Origin: a virus
Reading direction: 5' to 3' (one strand)
DNA length: 39,293 nucleotides
Virus record (IMG/VR): IMGVR_UViG_3300028610_000326
Location: 1 to 39,293 of that record
In this document: piece by piece, positions 713 to 25,894 of the stretch
Numbering within the stretch: position 1 is the first letter of the stretch
Layout of the letters: the number at the start of each line of letters is the position of its first letter
The notes under the pieces: model-generated
Seen by the model: only the letters and a program-made list of their open reading frames with translations
Databases searched by the model: none
What the model was told of the DNA's origin: nothing
Position numbers and translations under genes: made by a program

Positions 713-2113
713 TTACACTATGCTTCCGTAATCAAACGGTTGATTCATATAAGTTAATTCCACTCCATCGATTAAAGTATCAACCATATCATCATGTTTT
801 CCATTAGGGAATGTTTGAAACTCGTTTAAGAACTCATTCATCGTTGGCAAATCATTCACAACATATAGTCCGTATATCTCTAAGTAAGGTGTTATGTTTT
901 CCGCTCTAAAGATTTTATCTGTATTTCTTTCAACTTCAAAAACCATATCGCCATCATCTTTCATTCTTTGAAACAAATCAATGCCTGATGCCTTTTGCTC
1001 TATGAACATTCCTTGAAATGGATACTTATTATGCTTTTGGTAAAATGCTTTTGCAGTTACTTCACGTTCTTTACTTCTTGGCTTGCCTCTGAACATATCA
1101 AGCAAGTAGGCTCTATTCTCAAATACCCCAAAGCTAGAATAAACCGTATAGTCATTCTTTTCTTTATCTTTCAAGGCACTATCTACTGTGATAAATCTCT
1201 TCTCAAACAAGATACTATCTACTGCTTCACGGCTTATATATTTAATCCATTCAGTCTTAAGAAGATTCCCACCTTTTGCAACTGGGTTCTGCTGATACAA
1301 TGCTTCAAAGTTTTCACCCATTATCTTTTTACGCTTTAACAGGAAGTCTATTGATTTATGTTCGGGGATTAACGCTTCACCTTCAAGTCGATGTTCTTCG
1401 TCTTCTTCTGCAATAGCTTTATACTTTAAAACTTTAACACTTGAATCCTCTTTGATTAATCTTGCTGCTGGGTCATCTATATGCCATCTAGTAAGAATCA
1501 TTAAGAAACCAGCGTTTTCACTAAAGCGTGTAAAGAAATCATCTGTGAACCAATCCCATGTTTTGTTTCTAACTGTTTCAGAGTTAGCAGCTTCTCGACC
1601 TTTTAATGGATCATCGATTACCCCTAAATCAAGCGATTCTCCAGTAATACTTCCTTGAACAGTTGTATTTCTAAAGTATCCTTCCTTGTCAACGTATTCA
1701 AGTATTTCACGGTTTCTTTGATAGCTTGTTCCAGTAACAACATTTTTAATATTTATTATAGTTTTTGGAAATATATCTATATATACTTTTCTTGTGTATA
1801 TCCTTTGAAGTTTTAAGTTAGCCCTTACACCTAATCTTTCACTAAATGATGCAAATATAGTTTTGCAATTTGGATTCTTTCCAGCTACCCATGATAAAAA
1901 GTCAGTTATCGCTTCACTCTTCCCGTGTTGTGGTGGAGCTTCTATTATTAGCATAGGCTTCTTGCCTGCTACAAGGTCATCATAAAATGTTTGAAGTTCT
2001 TCTGCCAACCCCTCTACAAACCAGTTAACCTTTAACCTTGGATTGATTAGCTTTCTATACTGCAAAAAGTCATTTCGTGCTTTAACTACTTTGTAATTGT
2101 ATATTGCTTCCAA
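713..2113 (-). CDS. terL: Terminase large subunit (TerL)
   Basis: 466 aa. This is the ATPase-nuclease motor that packages DNA into the prohead. The N-terminal half has a Walker A motif (IEAPPQHGKSEA, about residues 57-68), a Walker B-like segment ending in two acidic residues (LDLGVIDDPL) and a coupling motif (ILTRWH). The C-terminal RNase H-like nuclease half shows the acidic residues expected in FITVDSA, FIEQKASG and HDDMVDT. The length is normal for the family. It follows TerS by 11 bp. The only usable start is TTG at 2113, and no strong Shine-Dalgarno precedes it, so translation may depend on coupling with TerS. Confidence 0.95.
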   Translation of the reverse strand: MEAIYNYKVVKARNDFLQYRKLINPRLKVNWFVEGLAEELQTFYDDLVAGKKPMLIIEAPPQHGKSEAITDFLSWVAGKNPNCKTIFASFSERLGVRANLKLQRIYTRKVYIDIFPKTIINIKNVVTGTSYQRNREILEYVDKEGYFRNTTVQGSITGESLDLGVIDDPLKGREAANSETVRNKTWDWFTDDFFTRFSENAGFLMILTRWHIDDPAARLIKEDSSVKVLKYKAIAEEDEEHRLEGEALIPEHKSIDFLLKRKKIMGENFEALYQQNPVAKGGNLLKTEWIKYISREAVDSILFEKRFITVDSALKDKEKNDYTVYSSFGVFENRAYLLDMFRGKPRSKEREVTAKAFYQKHNKYPFQGMFIEQKASGIDLFQRMKDDGDMVFEVERNTDKIFRAENITPYLEIYGLYVVNDLPTMNEFLNEFQTFPNGKHDDMVDTLIDGVELTYMNQPFDYGSIV

Positions 2114-4595: not shown

Positions 4596-4846
4596 ACGGC
4601 TGTTACTCTTATAGAAGTATCTTTATTAAATGCTCGTGCATAAATTCCACCAGAAAGAGGAGCTAAATATATTTGTGCATCACGAGTCTCTATTCTATCT
4701 GAGTTATCCGTATCTGTCGGAAGTGCTGCTGAATAAGTTATATACACTCCTTTTTGATTAGGTTTTTGAACCATGCATTTAACGGTTGAAATTAAAACCC
4801 AAGTTGTTCCAGTAAGTGAAATTGTTGTTGTTACATCTGTTGCCAT
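4592..4846 (-). CDS. Small beta-rich structural-type protein, 84 aa
   Basis: 84 aa, all-beta by appearance (TTTISLTGTTWVLISTVKC, QIYLAPLSGGIYARAF). Small proteins of this form occur beside phage fibre or decoration genes, but the family is not recognised with certainty. It is the first gene after a candidate extended -10 promoter and has TAGGA seven bases before ATG. ATGA coupling to the LamG gene suggests they work together. Confidence 0.65.
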   Translation of the reverse strand: MATDVTTTISLTGTTWVLISTVKCMVQKPNQKGVYITYSAALPTDTDNSDRIETRDAQIYLAPLSGGIYARAFNKDTSIRVTAV

Positions 4847-4872
4847 TTTGATTTCCTATTTTTGTTTTCCAT

Positions 4873-4886
4873 ATTATAACATAAGT
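4873..4886 (-). promoter_or_regulatory. Extended -10 promoter, minus strand (TGTTATAAT)
   Basis: Read on the minus strand the site is ACTTATGTTATAAT, an extended -10 (TGn-TATAAT) with a perfect hexamer at 4878-4873. The same 14 bases recur exactly at 10827-10840. It lies about 27 bp before the ATG of the 84-aa structural gene and would drive the 4592-713 block. No clear -35 is seen. Confidence 0.6.
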
Positions 4887-4898
4887 ATTCGTCATGCA

Positions 4899-4961
4899 TT
4901 ATTTCGTCTTCTTCTTTCTGAAACCTAATATATCACCTGATTGTTCTTCTGAATCACTCAT
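4899..4961 (-). CDS. Possible 20-aa peptide
   Basis: A 20-codon frame (acidic start MSDSEEQS, basic end FRKKKTK) with AAAGGA seven bases before ATG. It lies between the 56-aa gene and the promoter at 4873. The start context is good, but nothing else supports it. Confidence 0.35.
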   Translation of the reverse strand: MSDSEEQSGDILGFRKKKTK

Positions 4962-4974
4962 ATTAAATCCTTTT

Positions 4975-5145
4975 TTAGCTTTTCATTACCTGTTCTCTAA
5001 ACCATTCAACGATTTGTTTTTTATCTTCATCAGATAACTGTGCCATGTCATCACGATTCAAATCTTCATCTTCTTTTCTGTCGTAGTACATAAAAGCACC
5101 TACTAGGTCAGTAACTGTATTCTTAATTATTTGTTCTTTTTTCAT
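4975..5145 (-). CDS. Hypothetical protein, 56 aa
   Basis: 56 aa, acidic and helical (MKKEQIIKNTVTDLV, then DEDKKQIVEWFREQVMKS). Not recognised. It begins one base after the stop of the 75-aa gene and has GAAGGGA before the ATG. It fills most of the gap up to the next promoter. Confidence 0.6.
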   Translation of the reverse strand: MKKEQIIKNTVTDLVGAFMYYDRKEDEDLNRDDMAQLSDEDKKQIVEWFREQVMKS

Positions 5146-5146
5146 C

Positions 5147-5374
5147 TTAATTCCCTTCTATATCGTCTATATCAGGCTCAACTTCTTTAATTAAGTCTAA
5201 CGCATCTTTGTTCGTGTGTCTTACCCCGCCATTGAGTGCAATGTTTAGCACATCAATATTCTTGTCTTTCTCTTCTACTGTTAGATCTCCGTTTGTTTGA
5301 ACGCTTTCTATCTTTCTTTGAAGTTCTGCTTTACTGTTTCCTTGCAAGTCTGATAGGTTGTATACTCTTTTCAT
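5147..5374 (-). CDS. Hypothetical protein, 75 aa
   Basis: 75 aa from ATG 5374 (MKRVYNLSDLQGN), chosen because AAAAAGGA lies six bases upstream. The longer frame above it overlaps the NUMOD1 gene and is unlikely. The product is acidic and probably helical (KAELQRKIESVQTNGD), ending in an Asp/Glu-rich tail (EVEPDIDDIEGN). No family recognised. Confidence 0.65.
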   Translation of the reverse strand: MKRVYNLSDLQGNSKAELQRKIESVQTNGDLTVEEKDKNIDVLNIALNGGVRHTNKDALDLIKEVEPDIDDIEGN

Positions 5375-5375
5375 A

Positions 5376-5564
5376 TTAATCCTTTTTCTTATAGTGCCAT
5401 TGATACCCACTGGCTGATTTCTTTCTACCTCTGCAACATTTAGAAATATCACTTGGGCAAGCTCCCGTGTCCATGTAAGCATCATTTATAGACTCATACT
5501 CTTTATGTTTAACACATCCATCATAAGCTACTACTGCTCTTTTATTGCTTCCACCGCTAGACAT
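5376..5564 (-). CDS. Stand-alone NUMOD1-type DNA-binding protein, 62 aa
   Basis: 62 aa that match the pattern of one NUMOD1 module: VVAYDGCVKHKEYESINDAY, then DISKCCRGRKKSASGYQWHY. NUMOD1 modules are helix-turn-helix-like DNA-binding units usually attached to HNH or GIY-YIG homing endonucleases. No nuclease domain is present here or in frame with it. The gene is therefore either a relic of a homing endonuclease or a free DNA-binding protein. It starts 2 bp after the 348-aa gene. Confidence 0.7.
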   Translation of the reverse strand: MSSGGSNKRAVVAYDGCVKHKEYESINDAYMDTGACPSDISKCCRGRKKSASGYQWHYKKKD

Positions 5565-5566
5565 GC

Positions 5567-6613
5567 TTATTCTTTGCCATCACAATAGAGACTCATTACT
5601 TCTTCTTTTGTTGCTAGTCTATATTTATGTTTGTACTGTGTGTTAAGGCTAACTTCATTAAAAACCAAGAACTTATTATTTGTATCATCTTCTATTAGTA
5701 AAGCTGGAAAATTACTCTCATCTTCATACCATTTAGGCTCAATAGGCTTCACTAAAGAATATAAAATAACTTCCGAGTTTGGTGTAAATCTTCCTAGTGA
5801 AGCAAAACCATCGAGCATGCCACGACTATCCGATACACCTCTATATTCTTCGTCATCGTCGGTTATTGAGATAGTTGCTTTATCGTGTACGGATGTCAAT
5901 ACATTACATTTTTCTAACAAGTCATCTACTGTTTTGATTGGTTTAGTTTCTGTGAACTCTCCGTCTATTAAATATAACCTATTAGAAGTTATTGGCTCAT
6001 ACTCATAATTAAAATATATATTGCCTTCTTCTATTACAATATATTTTTCAGTAGTTGTCCAAGCATTAGATTCTTTATGCCCTAGCCTTACCAACTTATC
6101 ATAAGCTTCTTGACTAGCTTCTATATAGTAGCCGTTCCATTTGTTGCTACATGCAGCTTCTTCGCTTTTTAGAGTTTCTTTTTCGCCCTCAAACTGGGGT
6201 ATCATTTCGCCTAGTGGTTTAAATATTTTTAATTGATACATACATTTAGGGTTATACGATTCAAAGAAATTTAATCTCAAGGACATATAGTCAAAGTCTG
6301 TCTTGTTTTTCCATACAATTTCCACATAATGATTAGCAATTACTGCATCAGCTATATGTTCGTGTTCTTTTAGGATTAACTTATAATGCACCATCAGCGA
6401 GCCAAAAGTAGGCTTTAAGTTTTTATGAGTCCAATTCATCCCTTTATGTACATGGCCTATATATGTCACCCACTTATTAGGATCACCTTCATATAGTTCC
6501 TTCATTTTTTGGTTGTTTCTAGTAGCTATTTCAGGGGCAGAATCTATCTCCATCTCTCTCTTAGCTTTTTGATTTTCTTCGTATGTTAATTCGTTTTCTT
6601 GATTGTTTTTCAC
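5567..6613 (-). CDS. Hypothetical protein, 348 aa, under a structured leader
   Basis: 348 aa, not recognised. The N-terminal 40 residues are very polar. The rest mixes aromatic-rich strands (IYFNYEYEPITSNRLYLIDG) and acidic patches (ATISITDDDEEYRG); no catalytic motif, membrane segment or signal is visible. Start is GTG at 6613 with GGAGG six bases upstream. That Shine-Dalgarno lies inside the 3' arm of a 10-bp hairpin (6620-6669), so translation is probably controlled. It is the largest unknown gene in the window and ends directly before the NUMOD1 gene. Confidence 0.75.
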   Translation of the reverse strand: MKNNQENELTYEENQKAKREMEIDSAPEIATRNNQKMKELYEGDPNKWVTYIGHVHKGMNWTHKNLKPTFGSLMVHYKLILKEHEHIADAVIANHYVEIVWKNKTDFDYMSLRLNFFESYNPKCMYQLKIFKPLGEMIPQFEGEKETLKSEEAACSNKWNGYYIEASQEAYDKLVRLGHKESNAWTTTEKYIVIEEGNIYFNYEYEPITSNRLYLIDGEFTETKPIKTVDDLLEKCNVLTSVHDKATISITDDDEEYRGVSDSRGMLDGFASLGRFTPNSEVILYSLVKPIEPKWYEDESNFPALLIEDDTNNKFLVFNEVSLNTQYKHKYRLATKEEVMSLYCDGKE

Positions 6614-6619
6614 GGTAAG

Positions 6620-6683
6620 CCTCCAAGCCTATGTTATTTTAGTAGAAACTAAGAGTATCGGCCTGGAGGGTGTGACCCCTTAG
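6620..6683 (-). promoter_or_regulatory. Leader hairpin sequestering the Shine-Dalgarno of the 348-aa gene
   Basis: On minus-strand RNA, CCUCCAGGCC (6669-6660) pairs with GGCUUGGAGG (6629-6620): ten pairs including one G-U that would be an A-C mismatch on the other strand. The 3' arm contains the GGAGG Shine-Dalgarno of the GTG start at 6613. The loop holds UUAGU-UUCU-ACUAA, and its CUUAG (6653-6649) can instead pair with CUAAG just 5' of the hairpin (6683-6679), giving a pseudoknot option. It looks like a translational switch. Confidence 0.6.
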
Positions 6684-6712
6684 CCTCAACTAACTTAACT
6701 TTAACATAATTA

Positions 6713-7252
6713 TTATAATCCTAAAAGCTTTGTTTTTTTATTAAAAACTCTTATAACTTTTAAATAGTATTCATTACTGTAACTTTTGGTAACTTTGCTT
6801 TGTGCTTCTAGTTTATTAAATCGCTTTTGCCCTATCTTTTCCAGTAGTGCTATTTTGTACGGAACTAGATTTCCATGTAAAAATCTGTTGCATTTATAGC
6901 AACTTAAATGTGCGTTATCCATATGAAATCTTACTGCACTGTGACCTCCTACTGAAAAGAAATGGCTACTATCTCCTTTGGCAACATTGCAGCCACAAGA
7001 AATACAATTGTTTTCTTTATCCCTTGTTCGTATATATCGGTTAAATGCATTTTGTGCCTTCATCTTCATAGTTGTTATATCTTTTTTATAAAAAGCTTTC
7101 TTTTCTTTTCGCGCTGTTTTCTTCACTTCAAGTTTCTTTTTAGCTAAATGTTTGTTTCCGTACTCTATGGCACACGAAGGTGAGCATACTTGTTGAAGCT
7201 GTCTTTCAGGGCGGAATTTTTTCGGACACATTTTACATTTTTTCATTTTCAA
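6713..7252 (-). CDS. ninG: NinG/Rap-like recombination endonuclease
   Basis: 179 aa. The pattern fits the lambda NinG (Rap) family of Holliday-junction-type endonucleases. It has an N-terminal zinc knuckle (CKMCPKKF then VCSPSCA), a basic linker, then FNRYIRTRDKENNCISCGC, DSSHFFSVGGHSAVRFHMDN and AHLSCYKCNRFLHGN, which carry the Cys/His residues of an HNH-like zinc site. TTG at 7252 has AAGGAAG six bases upstream; ATG 7246 is the alternative. It lies directly after the methyltransferase frame and probably acts in phage recombination. Confidence 0.9.
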   Translation of the reverse strand: MKMKKCKMCPKKFRPERQLQQVCSPSCAIEYGNKHLAKKKLEVKKTARKEKKAFYKKDITTMKMKAQNAFNRYIRTRDKENNCISCGCNVAKGDSSHFFSVGGHSAVRFHMDNAHLSCYKCNRFLHGNLVPYKIALLEKIGQKRFNKLEAQSKVTKSYSNEYYLKVIRVFNKKTKLLGL

Positions 7253-7329
7253 AATAAACTTCCTTGTACTGCTTCTAAGCGTTTGTTTGCTATTTCTACA
7301 TAATCGGCTTCTAGTTCACAACCGCATCA
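7249..7329 (-). other. Residual methyltransferase C-terminus after an in-frame UGA
   Basis: The frame continues from the UGA stop (7329-7327) for 25 codons: CGCELEADYVEIANKRL, then EAVQGSLF, ending at TGA 7251-7249. This is the usual C-terminal end of phage beta-class methyltransferases, where a Trp or other aromatic normally sits at the stop position. The coding sense is intact, so the UGA is recent, read through, or a sequencing error. Confidence 0.8.
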
Positions 7330-7968
7330 TTCTAAGCCTATTGATTTACATGCTACTGCTGTTGTGCCACTTCCCATGAAAGGATCGAAAACTTTACAAT
7401 TTGGTACTAATGATTTTTTTGCTAAAAACTCTATTAAGTCGACTGGTTTTTGAGTAGGATGTAAATCATTTTGTGTTCTTGTTGCTTTTATTATGTTTGC
7501 ACTTCTTCCATCATTTAGTTTTGTATTGCCATTGCTACAAAACAATATCATTTCATATTTAGGTGCATAGTCACCTTCTAAGTCACCCATTCCTATATTA
7601 TTTTTTTCCCAAATAAGAATATTTTTTACTTTTCGATATTTCTGTAATTCACTTTTAAATACTTCTACGAAATGATGCGAACAAAATAAATATAAATGGG
7701 CATCATCTTTGGCAATCCTATCGAGTTCTTTTACAAAATCAGGTAACCAGTCTAAATTATCATCATTAGCAATTTTTTTATGCTGCTCTTCTCCGCGTCT
7801 ACTTTGAAAACTCATACCAAATGGTGGGTCAGTCAAAACCAAATCAAAGTAATTATTAGGTACTTTCTTCATAAACTCTAAACAGTCTATATTGTGAATT
7901 TTATTCATTTTATCTTGCATATCTAAATTTTGTATTTCCATTTCTAATTCCTTATATGTTTTACTCAT
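7327..7968 (-). CDS. DNA N4/N6 methyltransferase (beta class), interrupted near the C-terminus
   Basis: 213 aa up to the first stop. Motif order is beta class: the catalytic DPPF (VLTDPPFGMSF, about residues 45-55) precedes the SAM-binding motif (DPFMGSGTTAVACKS, near the C-terminus). HPTQKPVDLIEFL sits between, as in N-6/N-4 DNA methylases. It would methylate A or C in phage DNA, protecting it from host restriction. AGGA precedes the ATG, which overlaps the upstream stop. The frame is broken by UGA after SIGLE, but a conserved 25-residue end follows in the same frame (see 7249-7329). Activity of the short form is doubtful. Confidence 0.9.
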   Translation of the reverse strand: MSKTYKELEMEIQNLDMQDKMNKIHNIDCLEFMKKVPNNYFDLVLTDPPFGMSFQSRRGEEQHKKIANDDNLDWLPDFVKELDRIAKDDAHLYLFCSHHFVEVFKSELQKYRKVKNILIWEKNNIGMGDLEGDYAPKYEMILFCSNGNTKLNDGRSANIIKATRTQNDLHPTQKPVDLIEFLAKKSLVPNCKVFDPFMGSGTTAVACKSIGLE

Positions 7969-10418: not shown

Positions 10419-10459
10419 CTTTTGCTTTCGGACATTGTTAATTTAGAAGTTTTGGTGAG

Positions 10460-10555
10460 AGGTGTCTAAGTTCTCAATACTTACAATAAGCAACTTCAAG
10501 CTATCTAAAATTGAGAAGCCTACCCGAGAGGATAGACCGCAAGGCTTAGACACCT
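10460..10555 (-). ncRNA. Three-way-junction leader RNA of the replication gene
   Basis: Three helices lie close to each other. P1 pairs 10460-10470 with 10545-10555 (11 bp, perfect). P2 pairs 10471-10478 with 10510-10517 (8 bp, perfect), directly next to P1. P3 is a hairpin, 10520-10525 with 10530-10535. Read on the minus strand P3 is CUAUCC-UCUC-GGGUAG with a G-U pair; on the plus strand it would have one C-A mismatch. It begins about 20 bases after a candidate promoter start and ends about 40 bases before the ATG, so it is the 5' leader of the replication mRNA. No known riboswitch class was recognised. Confidence 0.6.
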
Positions 10556-10578
10556 TGAATGTGCTATTAAATATTTAA

Positions 10579-10594
10579 AAGCATTATATCATAA
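10579..10594 (-). promoter_or_regulatory. Extended -10 promoter, proximal copy
   Basis: Minus strand TTATGATATAATGCTT: TGn-TATAAT with a perfect hexamer (10588-10583). It is 15/16 identical to the copy at 10823-10838 in the same orientation. It would start RNA near 10576, giving the replication gene a leader of about 155 nt that begins just before the three-way junction. Confidence 0.55.
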
Positions 10595-10595
10595 A

Positions 10596-10767
10596 AGTTC
10601 TTACAGCGTCTACTATTTTGTGTCGCTGTACCCTCATCGTAGTTATCTTGGAGGATTGTCGCTATATCTTTCAATATTTCAGTTACGTTAAAACTTCATC
10701 AGGCGACTATATTGATAACCTACACCTCTCTATCACCGACACCCGGAGAGGAAACGCTGTAAGAACT
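10596..10767 (-). ncRNA. Large structured RNA enclosing the hammerhead ribozyme
   Basis: A perfect 13-bp inverted repeat, AGTTCTTACAGCG at 10596-10608 and its complement at 10755-10767, closes the element. Inside, CCUCUC (10751-10746) pairs with GAGAGG (10730-10725). The loop of that hairpin holds GUGUCG (10742-10737), complementary to CGACAC (10625-10620), a possible 6-bp pseudoknot. The hammerhead (10642-10720) fills the centre. There is no credible coding frame. The element lies between the 35-aa gene after dut and the replication gene and could act in RNA processing or at the origin. Confidence 0.7.
10642..10720 (-). ncRNA. Type I hammerhead ribozyme (minus strand)
   Basis: All core parts are present in order on minus RNA. 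Stem I: GUCGC (10707-10703) with GCGAC (10662-10658), extended past an internal loop by GUUAUC (10719-10714) with GAUAAC (10647-10642). CUGAUGA: 10702-10696. Stem II: AGUU/AACU (10695-10692, 10684-10681) with a 7-nt loop. GAA: 10680-10678. Stem III: AUAUU/GAUAU (10677-10673, 10668-10664) closed by a GAAA tetraloop. The cleavage triplet AUA ends at 10663, so the predicted cut is between 10663 and 10662. Stem I is open, making it type I; its internal loop is placed for the usual contact with loop II. Confidence 0.88.
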
Positions 10768-10771
10768 CATT

Positions 10772-10823
10772 ATGTTAACACTAAGCCGATCGCGATTCCG
10801 CAGTCCAAAACCTAATGTTAACA
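10772..10823. repeat. Paired ATGTTAACA repeats
   Basis: ATGTTAACA occurs at 10772-10780 and 10815-10823. The inner TGTTAACA is its own complement, so the two copies can also pair in RNA around a 35-nt GC-richer spacer containing CGATCG and TCGCGA. They could be a protein-binding site, origin iterons, or the 5' end of the structured RNA. Confidence 0.45.
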
Positions 10824-10840
10824 AGCATTATAACATAAGT
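10823..10840 (-). promoter_or_regulatory. Extended -10 promoter, distal copy
   Basis: Minus strand ACTTATGTTATAATGCTT: TGn-TATAAT with the hexamer at 10832-10827. Fourteen bases are identical to the site at 4873-4886 and 15/16 match the copy at 10579-10594. RNA from here would begin near 10820 and run through the whole hammerhead element. Confidence 0.55.
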
Positions 10841-10977: not shown

Positions 10978-11528
10978 GACCCTGTACTCCCAAACCCACC
11001 ATTGCGTTCTGTTTCAGTATCTACACCAAACAGATATGATTTATGTTCTAGTAGAGTTGTTTGAGCTATTCGTTCGCCTTTTTTAACTAGAACATTCGCT
11101 GTATTGTTGTTATTGTAGTTTGTATCTAAACCTAATTGTGATGCTAGTCGGTCTATCCACCAAGTAATATGAAATTCTTGTATTGGATTATGAATAATCA
11201 TTTTAATCTCATACTCATAATCAAGGTCAATGATACCTACACCATTTGGAAGAATTAAACCTTTTTTGCCCAGTGAACTTCTTAGCATTAGTTGCAGATA
11301 GTGGGAGCTTAAAAAGTGTCTCCAATATTTAATATCAAATGCAAAATCATTTACTTGTTGAAAGTCTTTACTTTCTTTCAGTTTATCTAAATCAATACAA
11401 ACTCCAAGACCAATAAGCTTAGTTTCACCAGCACCAATAACTACATCTTCGTTTGAAAAAAGGTCAACACATGCAGAATATTTGCTGCCTTTTGTTGGTA
11501 GCTTTCCTCCATTAACTGTTTTAAACAT
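10974..11528 (-). CDS. dut: dUTP diphosphatase (dUTPase)
   Basis: 184 aa. It hydrolyses dUTP to dUMP, keeping uracil out of phage DNA. All five trimeric dUTPase motifs are visible: SACVDLFS (I), RSSLGKKG (II), GVGIIDLDYEYEIKM (III, with the catalytic Asp/Tyr region), KKGERIAQ (IV) and RNGGFGSTGS (V, Phe-containing P-loop-like end). It is about 40 residues longer than the minimal enzyme. The extra length lies in the SSHYLQL region before motif II and an Asn-rich insert before motif IV. It overlaps the 60-aa upstream gene and the 35-aa downstream gene. Confidence 0.95.
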   Translation of the reverse strand: MFKTVNGGKLPTKGSKYSACVDLFSNEDVVIGAGETKLIGLGVCIDLDKLKESKDFQQVNDFAFDIKYWRHFLSSHYLQLMLRSSLGKKGLILPNGVGIIDLDYEYEIKMIIHNPIQEFHITWWIDRLASQLGLDTNYNNNNTANVLVKKGERIAQTTLLEHKSYLFGVDTETERNGGFGSTGS

Positions 11529-11703
11529 TATAATCCTTTACTTGTTTTGCTAAATCTTCAATCATTTCTTTTTCAAGTTTGCGGTATAATCTTCCTCTCC
11601 ATGTATTTTTTTCTTTTGCCCAGTTTGCCATTGTTGGTTTTGGTATTCCTAATGTATCTTTAAAGTGGTCTGCAACTTCAAACGATTTTAGTAAATTTGC
11701 CAT
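11521..11703 (-). CDS. Small HTH-like protein, 60 aa
   Basis: 60 aa. Residues 8-30 (VADHFKDTLGIPKPTMANW) read like a helix-turn-helix that contacts DNA, followed by a basic helix (RGRLYRKLEKEMIEDL). It lies between the repeat-protein gene and dut in the leftward early operon, where a small regulator would be expected. It starts one base after the repeat gene ends. The fold is inferred from pattern only. Confidence 0.6.
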   Translation of the reverse strand: MANLLKSFEVADHFKDTLGIPKPTMANWAKEKNTWRGRLYRKLEKEMIEDLAKQVKDYNV

Positions 11704-12549
11704 TTATTGCTCCTTGTTTTCATAAACACTTACTAAATTCTCGTGTGTTGATAAAATAAACTTTTTCCATTTAGTCCACCATGCTAAAGCACCACTACCC
11801 ATTTTTTTAATTTGCTCATCTGTAAAACTAGCCCACTTTTCAGGAGAATGTTTTTGACAACCTATTTTTATTAAATCACTCATAAAAAATAATCTATAAG
11901 TATCTTGAAAAAATGATAAAGAGAATTTAGTTTTTAATCCTAAAATTTCGATGTCACCTTCAACTCTTTGGTCACCTTCAACTATTTGGTAACCTTCAAC
12001 TATTTGGTCACCTTTAACTATTTGGTCACCTTTAACTCTTTGGTAACCTTCAACTCTTTGGTAACCTTCAACTATTTGGTCACCTTTAACTATTTGGTCA
12101 CCTTCAACTATTTGGTCACCTTCAACTCTTTGGTAACCTTCAACTCTTTGATAACCTTCAACTATTTGGTCACCTTTAACTCTTTGGTCACCTTCAACTC
12201 TTTGGTAACCTTCAACTATTTGGTAACCTTCAACTATTTGGTAACCTTCAACTATTTGGTCACCTTTAACTCTTTGGTAACCTTCAACTCTTTGGTCACC
12301 TTCAACTATTTGGTAACCTTCAACTATTTGGTCACCTTTAACTATTTGGTCACCTTTAACTCTTTGGTAACCTTCAACTCTTTGGTAACCTTCAACTATT
12401 TGGTAACCTTCAACTCTTTGGTCACCTTTAACTCTTAAATTGATTTTAATAATCACATTTCCATTTACTTCAAGATTCCCATTTAGTTCAAACCAAAAAC
12501 TTTTTTTTTCTAAGCCTTTATAGTTCTCGTCTATTACAACTGTTTGCAT
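11704..12549 (-). CDS. Hexapeptide-repeat protein with about 27 xVxGxQ units
   Basis: 281 aa. Residues 1-37 are a polar cap ending in LEVNGNVIIKINL. Residues about 38-199 are 27 uninterrupted hexapeptides of the form [R/I]V[E/K]G[D/Y]Q, as expected of a beta-solenoid with inward Val. The last 80 residues form a non-repetitive domain (IKIGCQKHSPEKWASF, GSGALAWWTKWKKFIL). It is the first gene of the leftward early operon, behind a near-consensus sigma-70 promoter. It therefore probably acts early, perhaps by binding or mimicking a polymer such as nucleic acid. Repeat number may vary between isolates. Confidence 0.85.
   Translation of the reverse strand: MQTVVIDENYKGLEKKSFWFELNGNLEVNGNVIIKINLRVKGDQRVEGYQIVEGYQRVEGYQRVKGDQIVKGDQIVEGYQIVEGDQRVEGYQRVKGDQIVEGYQIVEGYQIVEGYQRVEGDQRVKGDQIVEGYQRVEGYQRVEGDQIVEGDQIVKGDQIVEGYQRVEGYQRVKGDQIVKGDQIVEGYQIVEGDQRVEGDIEILGLKTKFSLSFFQDTYRLFFMSDLIKIGCQKHSPEKWASFTDEQIKKMGSGALAWWTKWKKFILSTHENLVSVYENKEQ
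11950..12437. repeat. 18-bp tandem repeat array inside the hexapeptide gene
   Basis: About 27 copies of an 18-bp unit. Almost all variation is at three single-base sites per unit (GAA/AAA, TAC/GAC, AGA/ATA in the coding frame). Units 3-8 and 21-26 have the same amino-acid pattern, which suggests internal duplication. The opposite strand stays open as a by-product of the repeat. Confidence 0.95.
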
Positions 12550-24986: not shown

Positions 24987-25894
24987 TACGAAGTCCTTCC
25001 TGAATTCAATCCAATTATTTCAGTTTGTGCAACTTCTGTTGAAAAATTATCCACGATATGCTTAAGTTCTTGCACCCTATATATGCCATCGCCACTTATT
25101 TGGCTTTTTCTTGGCTTGTATGTTGTAAGATTTCCAAAGCTTATATTTCTTGTTCGAGATTGTACCTGAAACTCTGCCCCAATTTTTAAACTAGAATCAA
25201 TTAATACCTTACAGTTGATTCCCTGCTCACTCAATGTCGGAGGCTCTACTAAGCCACTATTGATGATAATTCGATTATTTTTAATAGTGGTTTTGTTTGC
25301 CAGAATGTTTAATTTTTCTTCGTCAATGTAAACATCTACATCTTTGAAACAATCACTAAGAAGCCTTTTAATATTGGATACTACTTCGCCATTGATCAGT
25401 ATTGATTTTAGCACACTTTTGTCTGTGCATGCCGTTAGCCCTTCAAGCGCACCTTTAACAGCTACTCCTGTTTCGGCAAGCTCTCCTATAAGCTCATCTA
25501 TCATTGTGCTTCTTGAAGTACCTTTATCGAATTTCTTATTAGTCTTTTGTCTAAAAGCGTTGAACCCATCGCCACAATACATTATGGTTTTCCATTCTGT
25601 ATCCTGATTAGAGTATGTGCTATTGACATTGATTAAATCGCCTTTAAACAATAGTCTATCGTCAAGCATTACTTCAATTTTAGTAATCCCAATATCTTCA
25701 GTAAAATTATAAATATTATTATATAGATCTTCTCTGCTGTTTTGGTTAAGCTGGTAGATTTCAATTTCCGCTTCATTTGGAGTAGCGGCTAGTGTTTTTG
25801 TTGCAACGATCCTAATATGTAAGTCCTCTATAACTCTATCAATCGTTTTATTTTTTATTGATACCGTTAGGTTCCTACTACTATACTCACTCAT
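24986..25894 (-). CDS. Baseplate hub protein (gp27 / gpD-like)
   Basis: 302 aa. Hub family: RNLTVSIKNKTIDRV, NEAEIEIYQLNQNSREDLYN, IEVMLDDRLLFKGDLINV, a central alpha part (STMIDELIGELAETGVAVKG), then a C-terminal barrel (CKVLIDSSLKIGAEFQVQSR, GIYRVQELKHIVDN). A trimer joins tube to spike. Gene order plug-hub-spike is as expected. Confidence 0.85.
   Translation of the reverse strand: MSEYSSRNLTVSIKNKTIDRVIEDLHIRIVATKTLAATPNEAEIEIYQLNQNSREDLYNNIYNFTEDIGITKIEVMLDDRLLFKGDLINVNSTYSNQDTEWKTIMYCGDGFNAFRQKTNKKFDKGTSRSTMIDELIGELAETGVAVKGALEGLTACTDKSVLKSILINGEVVSNIKRLLSDCFKDVDVYIDEEKLNILANKTTIKNNRIIINSGLVEPPTLSEQGINCKVLIDSSLKIGAEFQVQSRTRNISFGNLTTYKPRKSQISGDGIYRVQELKHIVDNFSTEVAQTEIIGLNSGRTS

Follow-up and report, generated by a model that had tools for sequence, protein, structure and literature searches.

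A candidate type I hammerhead ribozyme at the centre of a doubly pseudoknotted phage RNA family

On the minus strand of a viral contig of 39,293 nucleotides (IMG/VR record IMGVR_UViG_3300028610_000326, positions 1 to 39,293; hereafter the window), the gap after dut holds a stretch that reads as a hammerhead ribozyme. The initial annotation took this stretch, positions 10642-10720, for a self-contained hammerhead with a two-helix stem I, lying between dut and a replication gene and cutting their common transcript. The locus thus raises the questions of whether the motif is a genuine hammerhead, whether it stands alone, and what a phage might gain from carrying it.

The hammerhead core

Read directly from the minus strand, positions 10707-10658 run GTCGC CTGATGA AGTT-TTAACGT-AACT GAA ATATT-GAAA-GATAT A GCGAC, with the blocks in type I order and all invariant hammerhead positions present (Table 1). 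The earlier claim of a complete minus-strand core in correct order is therefore borne out, and a strict hammerhead descriptor found one match in the real window and none in 3000 dinucleotide-preserving shuffles of the whole window. The A15.1-U16.1 pair corresponds to A10677-U10664, and hammerhead numbering, with H17 at A10663, agrees with the cut between 10663 and 10662 that had been predicted.

The minimum-energy fold contains all three hammerhead stems. Since the isolated core folds no better than its shuffles (z = +0.5 and -1.3 in two fold tests), energy alone gives no support to the hammerhead; conservation does. An internal loop adjoins stem I in the window and GNRA-type stem II loops occur in many relatives, features from which sequence cannot show a contact between loop I and loop II.

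Several other classes of RNA were considered. A permuted (type-SGC) hammerhead is ruled out by the type I order of the core blocks, and an HDV-like theta ribozyme by its different topology together with the absence of any HDV-type Rfam match for the window. The Rfam models of GOLLD and ROOL match neither the window nor its relatives; for a group I intron, a tmRNA or a T-box, each weighed by eye, Rfam offers no support.

Architecture and relatives of the whole element

A covariance model built from 14 relatives, with the window left out, returned a single strong match in the window, from 10758 to 10620 on the minus strand (Table 1). The hammerhead does lie within the span first annotated, but the real element is larger, and on sequence comparison the motif is one domain of a predicted doubly pseudoknotted RNA of about 140 nt common to its relatives, so that of the isolated-hammerhead reading only the core stands. 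From 5' to 3', H1, whose loop pairs with the 3' end to form H2, is followed by the first strand of H3, by stem I and the rest of the hammerhead, and by H5, in the loop of which the second strand of H3 lies; the pseudoknots H1/H2 and H3/H5 flank the hammerhead. The second helix that had been assigned to stem I is present, although it has 7 bp rather than 6 and, instead of forming a simple outer part of stem I, crosses H5 in a pseudoknot (H3). Conserved sequence outside the core amounts to about 90 nt and includes GTGTAGG, CTACGATG and AGCGTTTCC. In most members of subfamily A (defined below) and in several others, the element is followed on its 3' side by another hairpin, with a GAAAGA loop; the window lacks it, its copy being flanked instead by the two arms of a 19-nt inverted repeat (Table 1).

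Table 1. Features of the element and its surroundings in the window
Feature	Position	Strand	Evidence
Entire conserved element, double-pseudoknot RNA around hammerhead core	10620..10758	-	covariance model of 14 relatives, 104.9 bits, E 1.2e-23
H1 hairpin, CCTCTC 10751-10746 / GAGAGG 10730-10725	10725..10751	-	two-sided changes in 4 of 6 pairs
H2 5' strand GTGTCG, in H1 loop (pseudoknot)	10737..10742	-	pairs with 10625-10620; flank-swap control
H2 3' strand CGACAC	10620..10625	-	equivalent helix in other non-redundant members; flank-swap control
H3 5' strand GGTTATC, distal to stem I	10714..10720	-	two-sided changes in 6 of 7 pairs across the subfamily
H3 3' strand GATAACT, within H5 loop (pseudoknot)	10641..10647	-	family helices, flank swap, covariation
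H5 hairpin, ATCCTC 10656-10651 / GAGGGT 10635-10630	10630..10656	-	two-sided changes in 5 of 6 pairs
Hammerhead domain	10658..10707	-	sequence; 0 shuffle matches; core intact at 9 of 9 sites from the non-forcing pattern
Stem I	GTCGC 10707-10703 / GCGAC 10662-10658	-	sequence
C3-A9 (CTGATGA)	10702-10696	-	sequence
Stem II, 7-nt loop	AGTT 10695-10692 / AACT 10684-10681	-	sequence
G12-A14 (GAA)	10680-10678	-	sequence
Stem III, one T-G pair, GAAA loop	ATATT 10677-10673 / GATAT 10668-10664	-	sequence
H17 = A10663	10663	-	sequence
Predicted cleavage site, A10663 (H17) / G10662 (N1.1)	10662..10663	-	hammerhead numbering, inferred
Enclosing inverted repeat, 3' arm, 19 nt, 89% complementary	10596..10614	-	repeat search and fold; particular to the window
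Enclosing inverted repeat, 5' arm	10749..10767	-	repeat search; particular to the window
Stable hairpin directly upstream	10770..10830	-	-20.9 kcal/mol, z -4.45
Second structured RNA downstream, 11-bp closing helix AGGTGTCTAAG/CTTAGACACCT, three-way junction	10456..10560	-	-37.9 kcal/mol, z -4.79
Promoter-like site TAGACG-18-TATAAT, TG before second hexamer, directly after element	10583..10612	-	consensus match only

Relatives were reached by several routes. A pattern of core plus stem I yielded two further IMG/VR loci, sharing with the window AGCGTTTCC, GTGTAGG, CTACGATG and several helices of differing sequence. Because this pattern forces the core, the next searches used outer segments only; the strictest of them found eight viral loci besides the window, and at all nine sites CUGAUGA, GAAA, the A15.1-U16.1 pair and G12 A13 A14 are present, with A, C or U at position 17. 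A scan that forced CTGATGAAGC..GCAGAAACC but left stem I, U16.1 and position 17 free brought in many more relatives, in which stem I differs in sequence and still pairs.

The member set combines the stem II/III-core scan without stem I, an E. coli prophage to which a weak BLAST match had pointed, and Klebsiella Taipeivirus phages; at least 31 non-redundant members from these phages, the prophage and IMG/VR contigs fit one architecture. Four subfamilies were assigned by eye: A (AGCGTTTCC..GGTGTAGG..CTACGAT), to which the window belongs, B (ATACGGYACC..CAAGTAGGTRCC) of enterobacterial prophages and Klebsiella phages, C (CATCTGGCCCGGC..GGAATAAAT) and D (CACAGGTCCCC..GTAGAGTTGGGGAC). Across the 31 members the inner stem I quartet takes eight forms, all still pairing (TCGC, ACGC, ACGA, TCGA, TTGC, ACGG, ATGC and GCGC), while A15.1-U16.1, G12 and G8 are invariant. 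H17 is C in 20, U in 7 and A in 4, counts to be read knowing that the architecture descriptor behind this set excluded G at H17, which neither the stem-I-free scan nor the unforced nine-site check did.

Subfamily A queries gave only short matches in the phage, plasmid and E. coli collections, one of which, in E. coli SZQ1 (H18), led to the divergent subfamily B. No relatives were found with dut as bait; the downstream protein as bait collected 74 loci, and a hammerhead scan of the loci collected by then matched the window only. Two exact patterns covering subfamily A only found nothing in the genome contigs of 84,980 species, and the genomes of PaP3 and Bcep176, for which phage hammerheads have been published, gave no hammerhead by descriptor or Rfam. 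Matches within coding sequence (the L320 group, L347, L351, L352, L356 and L358) were taken as chance. Contig G011 (the record of L328) has two covariance-model matches, 11508-11632 and 25762-25891 (minus strand), and a single genome may thus carry two or more copies.

Covariation was assessed on a MAFFT alignment of 14 subfamily A sequences without the window (A2), with the structure taken from L098 and H3 included. In this alignment 97.1% of cells pair, against 82.2% when shuffled, and 21 of the 30 pairs show two-sided changes, which none of 500 shuffles reach; sliding the alignment by one column lowers pairing to 38%. Within the hammerhead, such changes fall in one of five pairs of stem I, all three of stem II and two of three of stem III. 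Helices across the 31 members were picked by optimisation and their 100% pairing is partly by construction, so that pairing is tested more fairly by A2 and by a flank swap in which members trade their 5' and 3' flanks; the swap lowers the best helix score from 6.8 to 4.4 for H3 and from 6.4 to 4.0 for H2. The covariance model built on subfamily A also detects the divergent subfamilies, with E-values from 1e-8 to 0.03, and in Klebsiella phage Madison it matches where the element was expected; about 140 control loci gave no false hit at E<=0.1. Relatives found without forcing these features again show the invariant core, follow the NUH rule and have three covarying stems; the assignment of the window motif as a hammerhead of type I connectivity is thus strongly supported by comparative sequence evidence.

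The catalogue itself has no entry for the element: in Rfam 15 no member tested has an above-threshold match. The search with Rfam hammerhead models proposed for the window was negative, giving no hit at the gathering score, none at E<=10 and nothing relevant at permissive thresholds, and the best Rfam hammerhead score among the relatives is 23.3 bits with Hammerhead_HH9, against a threshold of 52. Reaching the gathering score is a matter of cataloguing and does not define a hammerhead chemically.

Genomic setting

In the window, the neighbour called dut is confirmed by a PF00692 match, whereas the label of replication gene for the other neighbour is not established, this gene matching phrog_15768, a PHROG of unknown function. 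The window contains no tRNA genes, and the tRNA-island setting of other members does not directly apply to it. In several whole records the element lies on the same strand as tRNA genes and close to them: 8 nt before a tRNA-like gene (L076), between tRNA-Asn and tRNA-Gly at 12 and 23 nt (L317), 12 nt from a tRNA in a record with 15 tRNA matches (L363), about 30 nt from a tRNA (L344) and 22 nt after a sub-threshold tRNA-like match (L098). A distance of about 35 nt or less was found in 5 of 25 records, compared with 0.1-0.2 expected by chance, and same-strand tRNAs within about 1 kb occur in L313, L315, L325, L327, L330 and L333.

A second recurrent location is the interval between the antiterminator Q and the lysis genes, occupied by the element in the phi80-like phage L121 and in the E. 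coli SZQ1 prophage; the neighbourhood in L319 is likewise Q-holin. In the related Klebsiella phage ST101-KPC2phi6.1 the same Q-to-lysis slot holds four tRNAs.

Some member loci contain further non-coding sequence. Klebsiella phage Madison (L370) has about 3.2 kb without annotated genes (4688-7901), from a hypothetical protein gene to tRNA-Met, with the ribozyme element at 6005-6148; the matching region of phage Magnus is annotated with many tiny ORFs, which are probably spurious. A larger repeated non-coding arrangement surrounds the members in L098 (3550-4130), L324 (reverse complement, 380-680) and L332 (2850-3500), comprising hairpins with GAAAGA loops (two in L098, three in L324), ACACGCATGAG paired with CTCAGCCGTGT, and then GTGTTGGTG..ACCAACAAC; it seems likely that this is a larger modular RNA. 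Other Rfam RNAs at or above their curated scores lie in member loci as well, namely STnc100 (L366, 4323-4537), isrJ (L121, 3283-3359), int-alpA (L144, 2579-2645) and DUF2815 RNA (L364, 5374-5433).

The gap after dut in the window looks, from predicted folds, like a small cluster of non-coding RNAs (Table 1). The upstream hairpin is possibly part of the same cluster as the element, judging by its position, and the structured RNA downstream has no relatives found in phages. A 25-nt stretch, TTATGnTATAATGCTT.., occurs twice on the minus strand with 84% identity (10814-10838 and 10570-10594) and resembles extended -10 promoters; one copy precedes the upstream hairpin, the other directly follows the ribozyme element and covers the -10 of the promoter-like site. 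Elsewhere in the window, a 281-aa ORF (11704-12549, minus strand) consists mostly of short tandem repeats (QRVEGYQIVKGD..), and the strand opposite is also open.

Predicted cleavage, rival readings and known systems

The observations are best explained, and quite probably so, by a family of unlisted phage non-coding RNAs of about 140 nt with a type I hammerhead at the centre of a double-pseudoknot body, predicted to be self-cleaving. In the proposed mechanism, the loops of H1 at the 5' side and H5 at the 3' side would each pair across the cut site, through H2 and H3, giving a compact body in which the pseudoknots probably keep stems I and II positioned for activity. The core would then most likely cleave itself between A10663 and G10662, leaving the upstream product with a 2',3'-cyclic phosphate and the downstream product with a 5'-OH. 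Because the cut is spanned by three helices, stem I, H2 and H3, totalling about 18 bp, the halves should stay joined as a nicked RNA, and simple two-way cutting of a transcript is only partly supported. The element may serve in RNA processing, in protection of ends (5'-OH) or as a nicked structural RNA; its use by the phage to process polycistronic RNA, such as tRNA arrays, Q-to-lysis transcripts and the post-dut transcript of the window, is possible but doubtful.

The pair 10.1-11.1, which closes stem II, is normally G-C in hammerheads, an identity that is highly conserved without being obligatory. Among the 31 members it is A-A in 25, U-U in 3, C-A in one, A-U in one (the window) and G-C in one (L076). 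Mainly because of this mismatch, confidence in fast cleavage is lowered and activity is not certain, the window itself having A-U. Natural hammerheads with a U-U mismatch at this position are known, in which U-U supports more activity than other mismatches, and natural phage hammerheads and core variants are active (PMC3088659). The departure from consensus is therefore treated as unusual, neither excluding a hammerhead nor serving as a defining feature.

The same mismatch would fit a real family in which the hammerhead fold survives as a structural junction of three helices within a scaffold RNA, with cutting lost or negligible. Many conserved nucleotides outside the core (GTGTAGG, CTACGATG, AGCGTTTCC) point to another function, and the cut-bridging helices make release of products unlikely. 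Against this, position 17 is A, C or U and never G where it was left unforced, a pattern expected under selection for cleavage, and the general-base G12, G8 and the A15.1-U16.1 pair are kept in every member, which makes a purely structural role unlikely. The bridging helices bear on a further idea, in which a ligand, a protein or the host state shifts the balance of nicked and intact RNA and so alters phage gene expression. Products held together by three helices would suit such reversible cleavage and ligation, and the conserved unpaired segments could bind a partner, but no ligand or protein partner is known and gene neighbourhoods as different as dut in the window, Q-holin in L319 and tRNA islands speak against it, so that a switch appears improbable.

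A coding or DNA-level element (a small ORF, a recombination site or an origin) is very improbable. A 65-aa ORF does overlap the element on the plus strand (10618-10815) and a 32-aa hypothetical protein is annotated over the copy in Klebsiella phage Magnus, a subfamily B element at 22506-22347 on the minus strand of MN045230, but the compensatory changes preserve pairing rather than reading frame, members differ by indels, and in the related phages MDA2066 and Madison the place of the element is free of annotated genes. That a hammerhead-like string arose by chance in intergenic sequence rich in AT, as the frequency of short motifs in large databases and the missing Rfam hit might suggest, is refuted by the shuffles, the family-wide covariation and the covariance-model E-value of 1e-23.

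The putatively self-cleaving RNA family favoured here has its closest counterpart in the type I hammerheads of bacteria and phages (Rfam Hammerhead_1 and Hammerhead_HH9; Perreault et al. 2011, PMC3088659), with which it shares C3-A9, G12-A14, A15.1-U16.1, H17, three stems, an open stem I and the phage setting. It differs from them in its two outer pseudoknots bridging the cut and in the roughly 90 nt beyond the core that are conserved, in the A-A usually found at 10.1-11.1 and in scoring below the Rfam thresholds. Pseudoknot-assisted hammerheads and the natural U10.1-U11.1 mismatch have been described (PMC3088659); the known pseudoknot joins the stem I loop with stem II, whereas stem II takes no part in H1/H2 or H3/H5. 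HHphage of the haloviruses HF1/HF2 is also a phage hammerhead, located in an early-transcript leader with a mapped 5' end within three nucleotides of the cut; in contrast to the element it is a core variant 13 nt before a helicase gene, for which a pseudoknotted scaffold is not mentioned (PMC3088659). Type-SGC and other permuted hammerheads resemble the element in having several pseudoknots and in having been sought comparatively, but theirs arise from the non-circular order of the core blocks (PMC10085705), while the element has the classical type I (CGS) order and its pseudoknots lie outside the core.

Among other phage RNAs, theta ribozymes are self-cleaving, occur in Caudoviricetes and adjoin tRNA genes, but have an HDV fold with another core and topology and a proposed role in tRNA 3' trailer processing (PMC10879173). 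GOLLD and ROOL, whose function is unknown, are non-coding RNAs with pseudoknots that phages and prophages carry, often in the neighbourhood of tRNA islands; they are much larger, and a self-cleaving core has not been described for them (PMC12286853). It is tempting, if tentative, to see in the element a new class of structured phage RNA, a hammerhead domain within a multi-pseudoknot body that would keep its products joined as a nicked or reversibly ligated particle, in tRNA islands and early or late transcripts, a setting like that of GOLLD and ROOL but with self-cleavage. No description of the family was found in the open-licence literature surveyed.

That phages carry hammerheads is known, but not to what end. 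With a fixed architecture, representatives in cultivated Klebsiella phages as well as in an E. coli prophage, and a recurrent position next to phage tRNA genes, this family brings the question within reach of bench work. It would also be an example of a ribozyme organised to retain its own cleavage products and would extend the hammerheads by a form in which A-A occupies the first position of stem II; further, it would give a model for an RNA group missed by the current catalogue, with a known ribozyme in a new architecture and setting.

The scans of viral contigs also returned candidates that look like plain type I hammerheads without pseudoknots, L321 (3072-3125, minus strand), with a stem I of six bp, and L340 (about 1300-1380, minus strand), with one of five; L321 and the L340/L348/L360 group were not counted as members.
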